Part shown: in pieces, positions 6,775 through 15,253 of the stretch | Layout: every line of letters begins with the position of its first letter | Position numbering within the stretch: position 1 is the first letter of the stretch | Assembly: GCA_934574095.1 (NCBI GenBank) | Contig: CAKTMW010000046.1 | Span: forward strand, 1-15,253 | Length of the DNA: 15,253 bases | Source of the DNA: an uncultured Oscillospiraceae bacterium | Lineage (GTDB): Bacteria > Bacillota > Clostridia > Oscillospirales > Oscillospiraceae | Direction: 5' to 3' | Program-made: the position numbers and the translations under genes | Notes under the pieces: model-generated | Told to the model about the DNA's origin: nothing | What the model saw: the letters and a program-made list of their open reading frames with translations, nothing else | Database searches by the model: none

Positions 6775-9700
6775 TCAGTTCTCCTTGCGCTTGCGGGTGA
6801 CGAGCATCGCGCCAGCCAGGACGGCCACCAGGCCCATACCCACATAGAGGGTCACGCCCGCGTCGCCGGTGTTGCCGGACTTCACGTCCTTGGTGTCGGT
6901 CTTGGTGTCCGCCTTGTCGTCCTTCTGGTAGGGATTCGTGGCGGATCTGTTGTTGCCGGGCTTGACGGGGTTGGGCTCATACTTGCTGTCGTTGGTCAGC
7001 CTGGCGTAGGCCGCCTCGGCGTCGATCAGCGCTTGCAGCACATCGGCGGGCACCAGGGCCTTCTGTTCCTTGGTCAGCTTGTCATAAGCCGCACGGGCAG
7101 CCTTGAGGGCGCTGCCGCTGTCCTTGCTGACCGTGCCGATGGCGTTGATGAGGTCAGTCACCTTGTCGGCGGGCTCCTGCAAGTCCTTATAGCCCGTCAT
7201 CTTCAAAGTGACCTGGGGCAGACGGGCCAGATTTCCGCTGGCGGTAGGCGCGTCCATCACAGGCGCACGTCCCGTACCATAGGCAATTTCTCTGTGGGTA
7301 GCGTGGCCCGCAAAACCACCCTTGGACAGGGCTCCGGTAAGCTGGTAGGTGGTGCCGTTCCAATCCTCCGGAATGGTGATGGTAATACGCTGAAGCTCCG
7401 GGCTGCTGCTGAAATTGTACACACCAACGTCACTGCCGGCGTCAGAATCAAAATAGGTATCGTCCGCACCCTTGAAATGCAGCTTGAAGTTGAAGTTATA
7501 GGCCGTGGCCAGCTTCTCCTGAGGATTCAGCAAACCCCAGAACTGCAAAGTGACCTGGTCGCCGGGCTTGAACTCGGTATCCGCCGACACCTCCTTGCCG
7601 TCCTTGTCCAGCAGCTTCAGGGTGACCTGACGGGTGGTGACGACCTGATAGTTGGCCACGCCGTTCTTCTCCACCCGGATGATGTGGCGGCCTGTGGTAA
7701 GGCCGCTGACGGTGACGGTGCCGTCCGCCGCCACAGAAATACCGTCAGATGTAAAGCCGTTAAAGGTCATCTTGTCGCTGACGGTGGAGCGGGCCACGGT
7801 GACGGTGCAGCCGCTCTCCGGCTTGAAGCTGTACTCCGCACCTGCGCTGTCCAGATAGAAGAGGATATCATGCTCGGCGTCGATATTCTTGTCGGATTCC
7901 GCGGTGAGCTGGCTGTCCATGCGGTCGATGGTCATGTTGGTCTGGATGCCGGTACCGTCGGCGTCCACCGTCACCACGAACACGCCGGTGCACTCCGGCC
8001 AGATGGCGGTAAATTCACCTCTGGTTCCGCTCGTGCCGGACCCCTCAGGATGGAACATGGAATCATAGGTAATCAGCACAATGGCGGTTCCCGCCTTATT
8101 AGCGGTCATGGTGGCGGCGGAGCTGTTGTTGGCGTCGGGGGTAATGCTGACCACGTCACTGGGCTGGCCGTTGACGTCCACCACCTGATAGTGCATATCT
8201 GGCAGCGCGATATAGGCGTTCGCAAAGCTCTCAATGGCCTGCCAGTTGCGGAACACATTCAGGTTGTAGGTCTCGCCTACGTTCATACTCTTATAGCCCT
8301 TGGCGTTGATATTCAGGTAAATATCACCGCGGTCAACCCCATTCTTTTCAAAACGATAGATAGTGCTCTTATTAAAAGCGGTGTCTCCAATCGCCAAGTC
8401 CTCCGCTGTAATGATGACTTCGCCATCCTCGTTCATCTTTCCGCACAGGCCATCGCCAACTTTCTTGTCATTGCGTATGTCAGCGAAGTTCCAATAAGTC
8501 ACTCCATCGGGGTGCTGTACGCGAACGAATACAGGCTTATCCTCCGGCAAACCAACAAAGGTAGCAACGACCTCTGTTTCCGTCGTAACTACGGTGGGCT
8601 TTGCAAAATAATAATGGTAAGAACCGGTAAGATAACCCGCACTTACTGTTGAGCCAAGAGGAGCACGAACGACAAGCTCCTGCCCCATGGGAAGCGCCCG
8701 AATATTCAGGCTTAAGCTCACCATCGCATTAGACTTTTCGTATATAAGGGAAACGTAACCGTTATATGCTTGCTTTTCAGTGGGCGTAATAGTCACAGAG
8801 ATACTGCCCTTTTGCAGCATGAGACAACTTTTTGTGGCGCTGCTGCCGCTATATTGATTGATACCCGTTTTTATGATACATTCCGTACCAGACGCATCTT
8901 TGACTACAACATCGACCGTATAGTCCGTGCCTTCCACCCAGCCAGGGTTGCCCGGTCTAATTTGAATGACTGAGCAAATCCTGAACTCTGCTTTTTCCGC
9001 TGGCTGGACAGTTACTTTAATTCCGCCGCTGTAATTGCCCTTGTTGTCATACCCTTCGACCCAGTAATCACCTGCGGGCAGGTCGACCGTATAGGCATTA
9101 CTGGAAAGTTGTACGTTAGAAAGCAGATCATCTGTGCCGATCTGTCCATTCTGATAGGTATAAACTTTGAAAGAGTCTATTCTTTTTGGCCCCTGTATGG
9201 TAAATTTTACCGCTACCGTGTCGATCACCGTCAGGGTGACAGTATAGGTATCAGTGCTGTCGGCGTGGCCGTCGTTGGCCTTGAATACCAATCTGGTGGT
9301 CCCCGCCGCCGTGGGGGTATAGGTGTAGTTGGCGTCGGCGGTTTCAAACGCGCCGTCATTGACGCTGACCAGATAGGTCAGAGGGTCGCCGTTGACGTCG
9401 GTGAAAATCTTGCTGAGGTCGACGGTATAGGGCTGGTCGACCGACACATTGGCGGCCGCCGTAGCGGCCACGCCGTCACTGAGGGCAGGGGGCGTCTGGG
9501 GGACGTTCTGGACAACGGTAACGGTGTAGACCGTGGCGGTGCTGCCGGTATTCATGCTGGGCCAGCTGGGGTCGCCGCAGGTGACCAGAAGCTTCCGGCC
9601 ATTGACCACGGGGATGGCCTGGGTACGCATATACTCCGTGCCGTCCACCACAGTGCGGACCTGGAAGTTCTTGTTGGCAGCGGTGGGGATGGCCTTTACG

Positions 9701-10275
9701 GTGCGGACACCGGCATCCAGCGTCAGGGTGTAGTCACGCACGTCCCGGCTGAACGCGGGGGCCAGCGTACCGGCGGAGAAAGACAGGGCCGTCAGGGTGG
9801 TGTCGCCGCCGCCGCTGCTCCAGCTGCCGCCCAGGTCGGAGCCGCCGTTCTTGGTGTACATAAAGCGAATCTCATCACCGGCGGAGACGGTAAAGCTGGC
9901 CATGCCCTGGTTGACGAACCAGTCGTTCAGGGCGCCCATCCAGCCGGAGGAGGAGCCGCCGTCACGCTCGCTCAAGGATTCCTCCCCTTTGGTGACCTTG
10001 CCGATGTAGTTGGGCTGGGTCTCGACCGCCGTGAAGCCCGCGGAGGCCAGGGCGTTTTTTACGCAGTCCATCATGGTGGTGACGCCGGGCTGGATGGCGA
10101 CGTCGGTCGCCACCAGCGTACCGGTAAAGGCGGGCTCCTTGCCCTTCACCGCCTCGGTAAAGGTGGTGTTCTCCACGATGACGTGGGCCGTGGCGTTGTC
10201 GGCAAACGCCGCGGCGGGGATGAGGCTCAGGGCCATCACCAGCGCCAGCAGTAATGCCGCGATTCGTTTCTTCAT
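6775..10275 (-). CDS. Large cell-surface protein with DUF4430 (transcobalamin-C-like) domain, Ig/cadherin-like repeats and a C-terminal anchor
   Basis: A 1166-residue secreted protein. Residues 1-25 are a signal peptide (KKR, hydrophobic run, AAAFA cut site). Residues about 60-147 match DUF4430, with 'SGWMGALNDWF' and SAGDEIRFMYTKNGGSDLG. This fold is the C-terminal beta-domain of intrinsic factor and transcobalamin. Then come a cadherin-like beta-sandwich (160-255, LTALSFSAGTLAPAFS), a second Ig/cadherin-type domain (264-352, DVNGDPLTY), a PEGA-like unit (356-425, LPAGDYWVEGYD), further beta domains including a bacterial Ig-like one (about 660-770), a helical bundle (1036-1093), a charged linker, and a hydrophobic helix with RKRKEN tail after SGNTGDAG. 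No LPXTG is present. The start follows AAAGGAAG. The leader holds a cobalamin riboswitch, suggesting B12-repressed surface corrinoid binding. Residues about 350-650 are coded by lower-GC DNA. Confidence 0.88.
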   Translation of the reverse strand: MKKRIAALLLALVMALSLIPAAAFADNATAHVIVENTTFTEAVKGKEPAFTGTLVATDVAIQPGVTTMMDCVKNALASAGFTAVETQPNYIGKVTKGEESLSERDGGSSSGWMGALNDWFVNQGMASFTVSAGDEIRFMYTKNGGSDLGGSWSSGGGDTTLTALSFSAGTLAPAFSRDVRDYTLTLDAGVRTVKAIPTAANKNFQVRTVVDGTEYMRTQAIPVVNGRKLLVTCGDPSWPSMNTGSTATVYTVTVVQNVPQTPPALSDGVAATAAANVSVDQPYTVDLSKIFTDVNGDPLTYLVSVNDGAFETADANYTYTPTAAGTTRLVFKANDGHADSTDTYTVTLTVIDTVAVKFTIQGPKRIDSFKVYTYQNGQIGTDDLLSNVQLSSNAYTVDLPAGDYWVEGYDNKGNYSGGIKVTVQPAEKAEFRICSVIQIRPGNPGWVEGTDYTVDVVVKDASGTECIIKTGINQYSGSSATKSCLMLQKGSISVTITPTEKQAYNGYVSLIYEKSNAMVSLSLNIRALPMGQELVVRAPLGSTVSAGYLTGSYHYYFAKPTVVTTETEVVATFVGLPEDKPVFVRVQHPDGVTYWNFADIRNDKKVGDGLCGKMNEDGEVIITAEDLAIGDTAFNKSTIYRFEKNGVDRGDIYLNINAKGYKSMNVGETYNLNVFRNWQAIESFANAYIALPDMHYQVVDVNGQPSDVVSITPDANNSSAATMTANKAGTAIVLITYDSMFHPEGSGTSGTRGEFTAIWPECTGVFVVTVDADGTGIQTNMTIDRMDSQLTAESDKNIDAEHDILFYLDSAGAEYSFKPESGCTVTVARSTVSDKMTFNGFTSDGISVAADGTVTVSGLTTGRHIIRVEKNGVANYQVVTTRQVTLKLLDKDGKEVSADTEFKPGDQVTLQFWGLLNPQEKLATAYNFNFKLHFKGADDTYFDSDAGSDVGVYNFSSSPELQRITITIPEDWNGTTYQLTGALSKGGFAGHATHREIAYGTGRAPVMDAPTASGNLARLPQVTLKMTGYKDLQEPADKVTDLINAIGTVSKDSGSALKAARAAYDKLTKEQKALVPADVLQALIDAEAAYARLTNDSKYEPNPVKPGNNRSATNPYQKDDKADTKTDTKDVKSGNTGDAGVTLYVGMGLVAVLAGAMLVTRKRKEN

Positions 10276-10344
10276 GTGTGATCTTCCTTTCTCTTGTTTG
10301 GTTTTCTACGGTAAAGGCCGGGGCCTGAACAGACGAGACAGCAT

Positions 10345-10382
10345 GCTTTGTACCTGTACAAAGCGCAAAGGACTAGTCCTTT
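10345..10382 (-). promoter_or_regulatory. Two adjacent perfect dyads after the riboswitch terminator
   Basis: AAAGGACTAGTCCTTT (10382-10367) is a perfect 16-base palindrome. GCTTTGTAC-AG-GTACAAAGC (10364-10345) is a perfect 9-bp inverted repeat two bases further on. They lie between the riboswitch terminator and the start codon. They could be protein operators or RNA hairpins stabilising the 5' end of the readthrough mRNA. Confidence 0.5.
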
Positions 10383-10401
10383 GCCGCCAATTCCCGGCGC
10401 G

Positions 10402-10431
10402 AAAAAACGCACGGCCAAAAATGACCGTGCG
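10402..10431 (-). terminator. Expression-platform terminator of the cobalamin riboswitch
   Basis: CGCACGGTC (10431-10423) pairs with GGCCGTGCG (10416-10408, one wobble) around a six-base loop, followed by six T (10407-10402). GCCGTGC at 10480-10474, part of the aptamer closing stem, duplicates the 3' arm and could pair with GCACGGT (10430-10424) as an antiterminator. Confidence 0.88.
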
Positions 10432-10470
10432 CTGCACTTCTCACTTCGGCTTCGGGAATGGCAAAACCAA

Positions 10471-10590
10471 GCGGCACGGCGCATAGCGTATCTGACTTAG
10501 CCTGCCGCAGCAGGCATCACAGTGACCTTCTCGCGGGGACTCACACCCCATTCCGCCGCCGGTTCGGTGAAAACCGGCGCGCCGTCCGTG
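10471..10590 (-). ncRNA. Cobalamin riboswitch aptamer (compact form)
   Basis: Minus-strand segments match the conserved B12-aptamer core in order: GGAATGGGGTGTGAGTCCCC (10554-10535; consensus GGGAA..GGTG.AA.TCC), GTCACTGTGATG (10526-10515; consensus GC.ACTGTGA), a hairpin GCCTGC-TGCG-GCAGGC (10515-10500), then AAGTCAGATAC (10498-10488; consensus AAG.CAG.A.ACC). ACGGCGC (10585-10579) pairs with GCGCCGT (10482-10476) to close the aptamer. A hairpin, GCCGGTT/AACCGGC, fills the 5' side. The closing stem overlaps the antiterminator strand, so ligand binding would free the terminator: an OFF switch. The large peripheral P7-P11 arm of long B12 riboswitches is absent, consistent with the compact class. 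Identification is by motif order and pairing, without a covariance search. Confidence 0.83.
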
Positions 10591-10609
10591 TCTTTTGTTG
10601 TCGTAATGC

Positions 10610-10638
10610 AGTGTATCACATCGAAACGGGAATTGCAA
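10610..10638 (-). promoter_or_regulatory. Promoter of the riboswitch-surface protein transcript
   Basis: On the minus strand TTGCAA (10638-10633), a 17-base spacer, TACACT (10615-10610). Transcription would start near 10603, just before the aptamer. Confidence 0.75.
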
Positions 10639-10645
10639 GAGGAAG

Positions 10646-10678
10646 GCGAAAAAAGCCGCCCGGAGGTCGGCTTTTCGC
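10646..10678 (-). terminator. Terminator of the cysK-cysE operon
   Basis: AAAAGCCG (10675-10668) pairs with CGGCTTTT (10658-10651) around a nine-base loop. T-residues run 10654-10649, directly after the cysE stop codon. Confidence 0.85.
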
Positions 10679-11539
10679 TTACAGATTGTGGATGATGGTC
10701 TCCGGGGGACGGATGACCACGCGGGCGTTGTCCGCCACGGATTCGGTGAGGAAGGCGTTGCCGCCCACTACGGCGTTTTCGCCGATGACCGTTTCGCCGC
10801 CGAAGATGGATGCGCCGGAGTAGATGGTGGCGCCGTCGCCTACGGTGGGGTGGCGTTTGCCGCTGCTGTGAGCGCGGCCGCCGCGGGGACTGAGTGCGCC
10901 CAGGGTCACGCCCTGATAGAGCTTCACGTGGTCGCCGATGACGGTGGTCTCGCCCACCACGATGCCGGTGCCGTGGTCGATGAAGAAGTAGCTGCCGATC
11001 TGCGCACCGGGATGGATGTCGATACCGGTGCGGCTGTGGGCGTACTCGCTCATCATCCGGGGAATGGTGGGCACGTGGCGCAGGTACAGCTCGTGGCTGA
11101 CACGATAGGCGAAGATGGCGAACAGACCGGGATAGGCCAGGACGATCTCCTCGCGGTTCTGGGCGGCGGGGTCGCCGTCAAAGATGGCGTCAATGTCCGT
11201 CAGCAGCAGCTGCTGGATGCGGGGCAGCTGGTCCACCACCTCGCGGGCGATGCGGGGGGCGTCGGCCTCCCGCTCCTCCGGCAGGGCCAGGGCGATCTGG
11301 CGGACCAGACCCGTCTCGATGCGCTCCAGCAGCAGCGCGGCATAGTCCGCCGCCGCCAGGGTCATGATGGCGGGGTCGCCGAAATAGGCGGGGAACAGCA
11401 GCTGGCGCATCTCCTTCAGCAGGGCGATGATGGCCTTGCGGTCCGGCAGACGCAGGCGGCTGCCGTACATGGGGATGTGGGCGTTTTTCATGGTTTCGGC
11501 CATTACGCTGGCCGCGGCGCGAATATGATCCTCGTACAC
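10679..11539 (-). CDS. cysE: Serine O-acetyltransferase
   Basis: A 286-residue enzyme that acetylates L-serine with acetyl-CoA to O-acetylserine, the substrate of CysK. Residues about 20-160 form the helical SATase N-domain, of the long EpsC-like kind. The left-handed hexapeptide beta-helix follows, with the three residues known from E. coli CysE: D174 (GIDIHPGA), H189 (FIDHGTG) and H230 (GKRHPTVGDG). The tail ends IIHNL, not in the terminal isoleucine that classically docks into CysK, so complex formation is uncertain. The start is the GTG at 11539, two bases after the cysK stop, with GGAGGA inside the cysK end; this indicates translational coupling. A longer frame to 11656 overlaps cysK and is not used. 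Regulation is through the cysK leader attenuator. Confidence 0.94.
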   Translation of the reverse strand: MYEDHIRAAASVMAETMKNAHIPMYGSRLRLPDRKAIIALLKEMRQLLFPAYFGDPAIMTLAAADYAALLLERIETGLVRQIALALPEEREADAPRIAREVVDQLPRIQQLLLTDIDAIFDGDPAAQNREEIVLAYPGLFAIFAYRVSHELYLRHVPTIPRMMSEYAHSRTGIDIHPGAQIGSYFFIDHGTGIVVGETTVIGDHVKLYQGVTLGALSPRGGRAHSSGKRHPTVGDGATIYSGASIFGGETVIGENAVVGGNAFLTESVADNARVVIRPPETIIHNL

Positions 11540-14488: not shown

Positions 14489-15253
14489 TCAATATTCTTC
14501 GCGCCGCTTATAGATGGCCGCAGCGCTGCCGGTAAGGGACAAAATGCCCAAACCTACGTAGAGAGAAATGCCGGCATCGAAGGTATTGCCGGACTCCACC
14601 TTCTTGCCGTCAGTCTTCGTGGTGTTGTCCTTGATATAGGGATTCTTGGCATCGGGGTTGGTACCGGTACGCTTGACGTCCCACTTGGCGTACAGGGTCA
14701 TGTTGCCGGTGATCTTGGTATCAAAGCTGAACTCATTACCCTTGGTGCACTTATTATCCGTGTACCAGCCGCCGAAGGTATAGCCGGACTTGGTGGGATC
14801 GGTGGGTTTGGCAACCGTACCGTCATATTTGACCGTGGCGGTTGTAGCCGCTTCACCGTTATTAGGCTGGAACGTCACAGTGTAGCTGTTGCGGGTGTAG
14901 TACAGCTTCAGAACCAGGCTGCCGTTGCCAGCGATAGTGCCGGATTTAACCGTACCCTTTACCGTCTCATCATAGGTAAAGCCGGTGTAGCTCTTTGCCA
15001 CAGCGGTGACGGTGGTATCGGTGGTGCCGGCCAGGTTTTCGGTCTTAACCAGCTTATACGTGCCGTCCAGCTGCTCCTGATAGTGCTCCACCACGTAGGG
15101 GGTATTGGCGTTGGGGGTCAGCTTGCCGTAAAGCTTCCACTCCGCCTTACTGTTCGCAGCCGTAAAACTGGTCACTTTTTTGCTATCCGCGCCGAAATCC
15201 TTGGTGGACTTATACCAGCCATCGAAGGTGTAACCAGCCTTGTCGATGGCGGC
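14489..15253 (-). CDS. Surface protein with Listeria-Bacteroides (InlB B-type) repeats and a C-terminal anchor (partial, N-terminus outside window)
   Basis: The frame is open to the window edge, giving 254 residues of the C-terminal part. It begins inside one repeat of the InlB B-repeat/Flg_new type (AGYTFDGWYKSTKDFG). A MucBP-like unit follows (YVVEHYQEQLDGTYKLVKTE ... LKLYYTRN), then a complete second B-repeat (YTVTFQPNNGEA ... SGYTFGGWYTDNKCTKG ... MTLYAKW). The end holds an NPYIKDN linker, VESGNTFDAG, a hydrophobic helix and a YKRREEY tail. Such repeats make extended stalks on secreted Gram-positive proteins. The C-terminal module matches that of the large surface protein at 6775. A GTG at 15175 is not the start because the frame and the repeat continue upstream. 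Its N-terminal function cannot be known from this window. Confidence 0.87.
   Translation of the reverse strand, partial: AAIDKAGYTFDGWYKSTKDFGADSKKVTSFTAANSKAEWKLYGKLTPNANTPYVVEHYQEQLDGTYKLVKTENLAGTTDTTVTAVAKSYTGFTYDETVKGTVKSGTIAGNGSLVLKLYYTRNSYTVTFQPNNGEAATTATVKYDGTVAKPTDPTKSGYTFGGWYTDNKCTKGNEFSFDTKITGNMTLYAKWDVKRTGTNPDAKNPYIKDNTTKTDGKKVESGNTFDAGISLYVGLGILSLTGSAAAIYKRREEY

Follow-up and report, generated by a model that had tools for sequence, protein, structure and literature searches.

A compact cobalamin-type riboswitch in front of a putative corrinoid-scavenging surface protein of an uncultured Oscillospiraceae bacterium

The window analysed here is a stretch of 15,253 nucleotides from an uncultured Oscillospiraceae bacterium (contig CAKTMW010000046.1), and our subject is a minus-strand gene for a large surface protein (open reading frame at 6775-10275 (-), 1166 amino acids) together with the leader RNA in front of it. 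Judged from its sequence, the leader belongs, as a compact form, to the cobalamin riboswitch family (CL00101), and the protein behind it is probably a B12-repressed surface protein that scavenges corrinoids. Two observations of an earlier reading made from the letters of the window (the sequence-only reading) were confirmed: the ordered B12-aptamer core motifs of the leader were found at 10486-10556 (-) by a covariance model (R1), and the first folded domain of the protein indeed fits DUF4430, for which a check with a hidden Markov model (HMM) gave residues 81-142 and 26.2 bits compared to a cut-off of 23.8. The agreement of an RNA signal with an independent protein signal, on which that reading had built, holds together across the relatives.

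The leader RNA and its place in the cobalamin family

The compact aptamer core (P3, P4, a short P5 and P6) is 71 nucleotides long, and its P6 accessory region consists of one short hairpin. A search motif derived from the window and from L008, a locus of an Oscillibacter metagenome-assembled genome whose core is nearly identical to that of the window, was found at 20 sites in 17 of 400 genomes, compared to none for the reversed control pattern. Model R1, built from 19 relatives taken from these sites with the window excluded, found the leader with 90.3 bits (E 2.3e-29) as its sole match in the window, and no non-standard pair was marked in the alignment. The leader motifs are far above chance. 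In a pair test with 23 sequences, eight pairs had double changes, and the covariation score of 0.347 was reached by none of 500 shuffles (shuffled mean, 0.083; six slid versions, 0.061-0.102). The double (compensatory) changes are located in P4 and P6; P3 and the CUG/CAG helix are nearly invariant and therefore say little on covariation, and the outermost P6 pair is broken in 11 of the 23 rows. Core and topology of the cobalamin family are present in the leader and are supported by this covariation.

The likeness to RF00174 and RF01482 (CL00101) comprises the P1-P3-P4-P5-P6 topology, the CUG/CAG pairing, the AGUCAG strand, a hairpin in the place of P13 and relatives that lie upstream of B12 genes. 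What sets the compact switch apart is the cut P6 accessory region and scores below the Rfam thresholds in the window and at 19 of the 20 pattern sites. The sole pattern site above threshold is L090 (RF00174, 44.7; cut-off, 31.5); four score 23-25 with RF01482 (cut-off, 50), one scores 18.1 with RF00174, below threshold, and 14 have no listed cobalamin match at the site. Rfam also reports none of the R1 sites of 84-94 bits in five longer stretches. Among 79 homologue loci, R1 has ten matches of at least 25 bits, seven of which overlap Rfam cobalamin matches; the others are L008, L033 and L065:6982, and at L008 and L033 the site is followed within 0.5 kb by a DUF4430 gene. In a non-random set of eight Rfam-scanned loci, made up of close matches and motif-bearing loci, seven have RF00174 at a distance of 189-435 bases in front of the DUF4430 homologue, and the eighth, L008, is of the compact type; in L002 and L049, inspection by eye suggests that a small reading frame intervenes between the two. 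R1 found two compact sites in the L008 genome, in which no RF00174 was found at E ≤ 0.001 (68 of 120 first-look candidates scored). At L090:240-2520, two canonical cobalamin switches flank a site of the compact type, next to a frame that we named serine-recombinase-like by eye.

In the unconstrained minimum free energy (MFE) fold of the leader, the P1 5' strand ACGGCGC (10579-10585 (-)) pairs with the P1 3' strand GCGCCGU (10476-10482 (-)). Downstream of P1 follow a hairpin in the P13/L13 position (10446-10470 (-), -6.9 kcal/mol) and an intrinsic terminator with a U tail (10402-10432 (-), -19.6 kcal/mol). The 5' arm of the terminator, GCACGG (10425-10430), is complementary to CCGUGC (10474-10479), the antiterminator strand, which the P1 3' strand overlaps; the antiterminator duplex (-15.1 kcal/mol) was reached by 4 of 200 shuffles. 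The unconstrained MFE structure combines the aptamer topology with the terminator (-86.5 kcal/mol, compared to -76.7 kcal/mol with the antiterminator enforced). With an aptamer, a terminator and a competing antiterminator, the leader thus reads as an OFF switch, a layout that we infer from one sequence and that agrees with the shut-off by B12 proposed in the sequence-only reading.

Several results weigh against this view of the leader. The sequence-only reading had named an Rfam cobalamin search as its check, and the lack of a significant hit as a refutation, and the search was negative: Rfam 15 at gathering thresholds gave no cobalamin match in the window, and the Rfam cobalamin families gave none at E ≤ 5 on 10200-10750 and none at E ≤ 10 on 10440-10600. 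This outcome is overturned solely by model R1; given the leave-out match of R1 and the performance of the motif against its reversed control, we read it as a gap in model coverage. The leader terminator is absent from the consensus terminator scan, and complementarity of L5 and L13 for a kissing loop did not exceed the permutation level (p 0.16, 11 distinct pairs). The antiterminator was ranked at 20 terminator-bearing sites, the window included, with a crude terminator finder that yielded no terminator for L088; at 17 of the 20, ranks were 49-184 of 200 shuffles. A conserved antiterminator across relatives is not supported, with high ranks found only in the window (4/200), L090 (11/200) and L085 (14/200). 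The two low-threshold Rfam hits, WLE3 (E 1.2) and M23 (E 4.3), were taken as chance.

The surface protein and the alpha toroid

The protein begins with a signal-peptide-like start recognised by inspection (residues 1-25, 10201-10275 (-)), and the first recognised domain behind it is DUF4430, the transcobalamin-type beta domain (PF14478; residues 81-142, 9850-10035 (-)), which reaches the gathering score of Pfam; our own HMM, built from 18 homologues with the window protein included, spans residues 29-154. In the alignments, the domain retains the invariant positions of the family. Compared with the profile of a lipoprotein DUF4430 family, it gave an hhalign probability of 94.7%, and that profile in turn matches the solved structure 3u7z (E 1.7e-25). 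This structure belongs to RUMGNA_00854, a DUF4430 protein that resembles lipoproteins found behind the same switch type; its chain is short (101 residues), and the window protein is linked to it solely via the profile comparison. DUF4430 is named in the C-terminus of transcobalamins in the available text of PMC4350170. The link between DUF4430 and transcobalamin, as drawn by the sequence-only reading, is supported at the level of sequence by Pfam, our own HMM, the available parts of PMC4350170 and PMC1796856 and the profile comparison to the lipoprotein family of 3u7z. A profile of long homologues gave no more than weak squalene-cyclase matches in the PDB (best E 0.058).

Behind DUF4430 lie a cadherin-like beta sandwich (PF12733, 25.4 bits, cut-off 24.2; residues 161-255, 9511-9795 (-)) and an Ig-like domain (residues about 269-349, 9229-9471 (-)). 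The latter is recognised from a PF17963 match in the 95% identical protein P0002 (27.1 bits, cut-off 23.6); the window protein itself has a sub-threshold PKD_4 match. A long region common to the homologues separates the Ig-like domain from a helical FIVAR-like stretch (residues about 1033-1098, 6982-7179 (-)), which has similar stretches in other genomes and is named by resemblance, Pfam giving no FIVAR match in the window protein. It is located near the point where toroid-bearing homologues continue into the alpha toroid. The protein ends with an anchor-like tail composed of SGNTGDAG, a hydrophobic span and RKRKEN (residues 1135-1166, 6778-6873 (-)). The sequence-only reading had called the protein secreted and anchored, and this stands in part: the signal-peptide-like start and the NCBIfam LPXTG model TIGR01167 (22.2 bits, above the cut-off of 15.9) speak for it, and the Pfam anchor PF00746 (17.1 bits, under the cut-off of 20) and a tail motif, SGNTG, that lacks the LPXTG letters speak against it. 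A further point on the negative side is that a PDB sequence search gave no solved structure for the N-terminal region of the protein.

Beta domain and alpha toroid together form the known B12 clamp of transcobalamin and intrinsic factor. No alpha toroid was found in the window protein or in the six-frame translation of the window, and this, too, counts against corrinoid capture. Our homologue table holds the best 120 of 1832 homologues; by our own HMM (built from 18 of these 120), 112 are DUF4430-positive and 8 negative, and the alpha toroid is present in 100 of the 112. The twelve without it are P0001-P0005, which belong to the window's clade, three proteins of 728-870 amino acids that stop short, and four others. 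Four close homologues have 1163-1168 amino acids and 93-95% identity over residues 1-360. From these sequences, the clade of the window appears to have lost, or never had, the toroid half of the clamp. Such a protein may still bind corrinoids, because the cleaved halves of intrinsic factor, IF30 and IF20, together still bind cobalamin tightly, according to the available text of PMC6257451, and that of PMC3360681 suggests that the primary or first corrinoid site is in the beta domain. In a search of 400 family genomes, the window protein was matched best by L176 (55% identity, residues 1-1049), which retains the toroid (Pfam Prenyltrans 26.4, cut-off 26.5) and is preceded, at 530 bases, by a compact site.

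Distribution and regulon of the compact switch

At a threshold of at least 40 bits, R1 found 30 sites in a sample of 394 genomes from the order of L008, spread over 23 of them, and 7 sites in a sample of 299 from its phylum, spread over 6; the L008 genome contributes its two sites to both samples. Matches below 40 bits were left out of the 23-genome count because they mix compact and ordinary switches. Viral contigs were scanned for relatives, and none was confirmed there. The relatives belong to the Clostridia, and many come from gut samples, from which the host would most likely be a gut clostridium.

The genes behind the switch were read at 38 distinct sites (loci L080-L122 with duplicates merged), 33 taken by script plus L113, L116, L119, L120 and L121, which lack the motif used by that script; phylum-scan sites and six more strong order-scan sites, three of them read later in L182-L184, stand outside this count. 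B12-linked genes (DUF4430, alpha toroid, CbiK, CbiL, CbiQ-like) were found behind 21 of the 38: 18 sites lead into DUF4430 or toroid genes and three into CbiK, CbiL or CbiQ-like genes. The 21 are L085-L089, L093-L096, L098, L099, L107, L110-L113, L115, L118, L119, L121 and L122. Among them, L085 is counted by its likeness to L089 in translation and L087 and L088 by alignment with Pfam-positive relatives; the DUF4430 match was confirmed in the same open frame for L093 and L094, and the toroid match of L121 lies in the second frame. CbiK reaches 268.8 bits by Pfam, and CbiL 193.3 bits compared to an NCBIfam cut-off of 163.25. On the unfavourable side, CbiK is under the strict NCBIfam cut-off (232 vs 400), both CbiQ matches are under the Pfam cut-off (24 and 20 vs 25, the 20 being the CbiQ-like gene of L119), and no recognised B12 gene lies behind the other 17 sites. 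Genes at these 17 include a dipeptide-type permease, YitT, a cysteine-rich small protein with LysR, SLH proteins and a recombinase-like frame.

Three loci bring the compact switch together with further parts of corrinoid metabolism or of the clamp. In L173 (2054-14290), the compact site comes directly after genes for DUF4430, an energy-coupling factor (ECF) ATPase, its S-component class and two proteins of the CobU-like kind, the S-component and both CobU over their Pfam cut-offs and the ATPase over its NCBIfam cut-off; the switch is followed by a 2206-residue SLH/Ig protein that is 35% similar to window residues 298-963 and gave no DUF4430 match. In L172 (6004-6542), a canonical RF00174 and a compact switch stand back to back, one on each strand, with transcobalamin-like genes behind both: RF00174 precedes a fused toroid and DUF4430 protein, the compact switch a toroid-SLH protein and a separate DUF4430 frame, with ECF frames further on. 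In L196 (G251:C4:17500-20600), behind the compact site lies a DUF4430 protein that the toroid model matches only weakly (18 bits); the frame of a separate toroid protein (156 bits) overlaps its end. The ECF ATPase and S-component frames near the compact switches of L172 and L173 recall the vitamin B12 transporter ECF-CbrT (PMC5997447); the window has no ECF genes.

Small membrane proteins beside DUF4430 lipoproteins (L107, L122, L175) gave no Pfam or NCBIfam match where scanned. At L182:2047-5800, a compact switch (79.2 bits) lies before a protein of 1220 amino acids without a Pfam match at E ≤ 0.01; towards its end it shares 50% identity with window residues 1022-1166, and its N-terminal region resembles, by eye, another beta-grasp. 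Surface proteins behind the compact switch in L106, L114 and L121 share a stretch around AGELV..N that has no Pfam match and is possibly another ligand-binding domain.

Proposed corrinoid capture, rival readings and gene neighbourhood

In our model, binding of a corrinoid in the cell would close P1, the terminator would form and the gene would be off. When corrinoids are scarce, the P1 3' strand would pair with the 5' arm of the terminator, and the gene would be read. The displayed beta domain may then take hold of extracellular corrinoids, alone or with a separate toroid protein, and the captured corrinoids would be handed on to a membrane transporter. The Gram-positive corrinoid-capture protein of the sequence-only reading is upheld in part: leader, DUF4430 and switch layout speak for it, the lack of an alpha toroid in the protein and in all six frames against it. 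Also to be set against the model, none of the nine window reading frames scanned with Pfam and NCBIfam is a recognised B12 gene, and a consensus scan (threshold, 9 of 12 matches) gave no minus-strand promoter.

It is imaginable that the compact switch is a separate gut-clostridial aptamer subclass with its own corrinoid preference that runs a split transcobalamin, in which beta-proteins like that of the window and toroid-proteins are displayed separately and close together on the corrinoid at the cell surface; this extension, drawn from the layouts of L172 and L196 with toroid and DUF4430 in separate frames, is tentative and rather doubtful. The riboswitch may also be real and the protein of this clade no longer corrinoid-binding, the toroid having been lost and the remainder kept as an adhesin or wall structure with inherited B12 control. 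The toroid is indeed missing in all five listed clade members (P0001-P0005), the Pfam scores of DUF4430 in the clade (26.2 and 26.7) are the lowest of seven proteins compared (29.4-35.0 in the five others), and large surface proteins in which no DUF4430 is recognised are likewise found behind the compact switch (L173, L182). However, the DUF4430 of the window keeps the invariant positions of its family and B12-type control has been kept, and we regard such a loss of function as unlikely.

DUF4430 could also bind a ligand other than a corrinoid here, with the switch coupling its display to B12 status. A range of ligands is predicted for the beta-grasp SLBB superfamily in the available text of PMC1796856, and the solved 3u7z is labelled a putative metal binding protein, but DUF4430 is recurrently accompanied by alpha toroid, ECF transport, CobU-like and CbiQ-like genes, which makes this explanation improbable. 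Least credible of all is that the leader resembles a riboswitch by chance or is a decayed one: the missing Rfam match would fit, but a score of 90.3 bits in a leave-out model, an alignment free of marked non-standard pairs and a terminator hairpin of -19.6 kcal/mol leave next to no room for it.

The B12-repressed capture protein that we favour would have counterparts in Bacteroides, whose surface lipoproteins BtuG and BtuH capture corrinoids before membrane uptake and are under B12 control. By function, the window protein would work alike, whereas BtuG and BtuH belong to the Gram-negative outer membrane. B12 and its analogues are objects of competition among gut bacteria, and the window protein is a likely Gram-positive counterpart of these capture proteins. 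Bacterial transcobalamin-like members were predicted by Burroughs et al. in 2007 and proposed to be Gram-positive surface B12 scavengers (PMC1796856). The window protein shares the DUF4430-type beta domain with transcobalamin and intrinsic factor and has Ig-fold, FIVAR and Gram-positive anchor accessories of the types named in that paper; the scavengers predicted there carry toroids, whereas the clade of the window has no alpha toroid and stands under a compact cobalamin switch. The word "riboswitch" occurs 0 times in the main text of the paper.

New, then, are a compact switch type mostly invisible to Rfam, with its regulon, the toroid-less clade, and the loci with toroid and DUF4430 in separate frames (L172, L196). 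No literature was found on any of these, with reports of variant or compact switches judged by titles and abstract openings and subscription journals under-covered, and none on bacterial B12 capture among the DUF4430 literature, judged by listing. Annotation with Rfam mostly misses this type of cobalamin switch. The built-in B12 switch would provide an expression test for the putative capture protein, and since this relative of the human B12 carriers comprises the beta half only, it allows a test of whether this half holds a corrinoid alone or needs a partner.

The neighbours of the gene in the window are cysE-, cysK-, alanine-racemase- and DegV-like. A terminator-like hairpin stretch with a T run lies 3' of the upstream cysE-like gene (10640-10690 (-), -18.6 kcal/mol; absent from the output of the consensus terminator scan) and suggests that the surface-protein gene is its own transcription unit. 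A possible promoter was recognised by eye at 10610-10638 (-) (TTGCAA, 17 nucleotides, TACACT, with TG before the second hexamer; 8 of 12 matches), and the ribosome-binding site is AAAGGAAG (10283-10290 (-)). Between the leader terminator and this site lie the adjacent inverted repeats GCAAAGGACTAGTCCTTTGC and GCTTTGTACAGGTACAAAGC (10345-10384 (-)). At the end of the window (14489-15253 (-)), a surface protein with Listeria-Bacteroides repeats is cut at its 5' end; it has the tail pattern of the main protein, NPYxKD...SGNTxDAG, and a tail query of 58 residues found matches in 3 of 200 family genomes.

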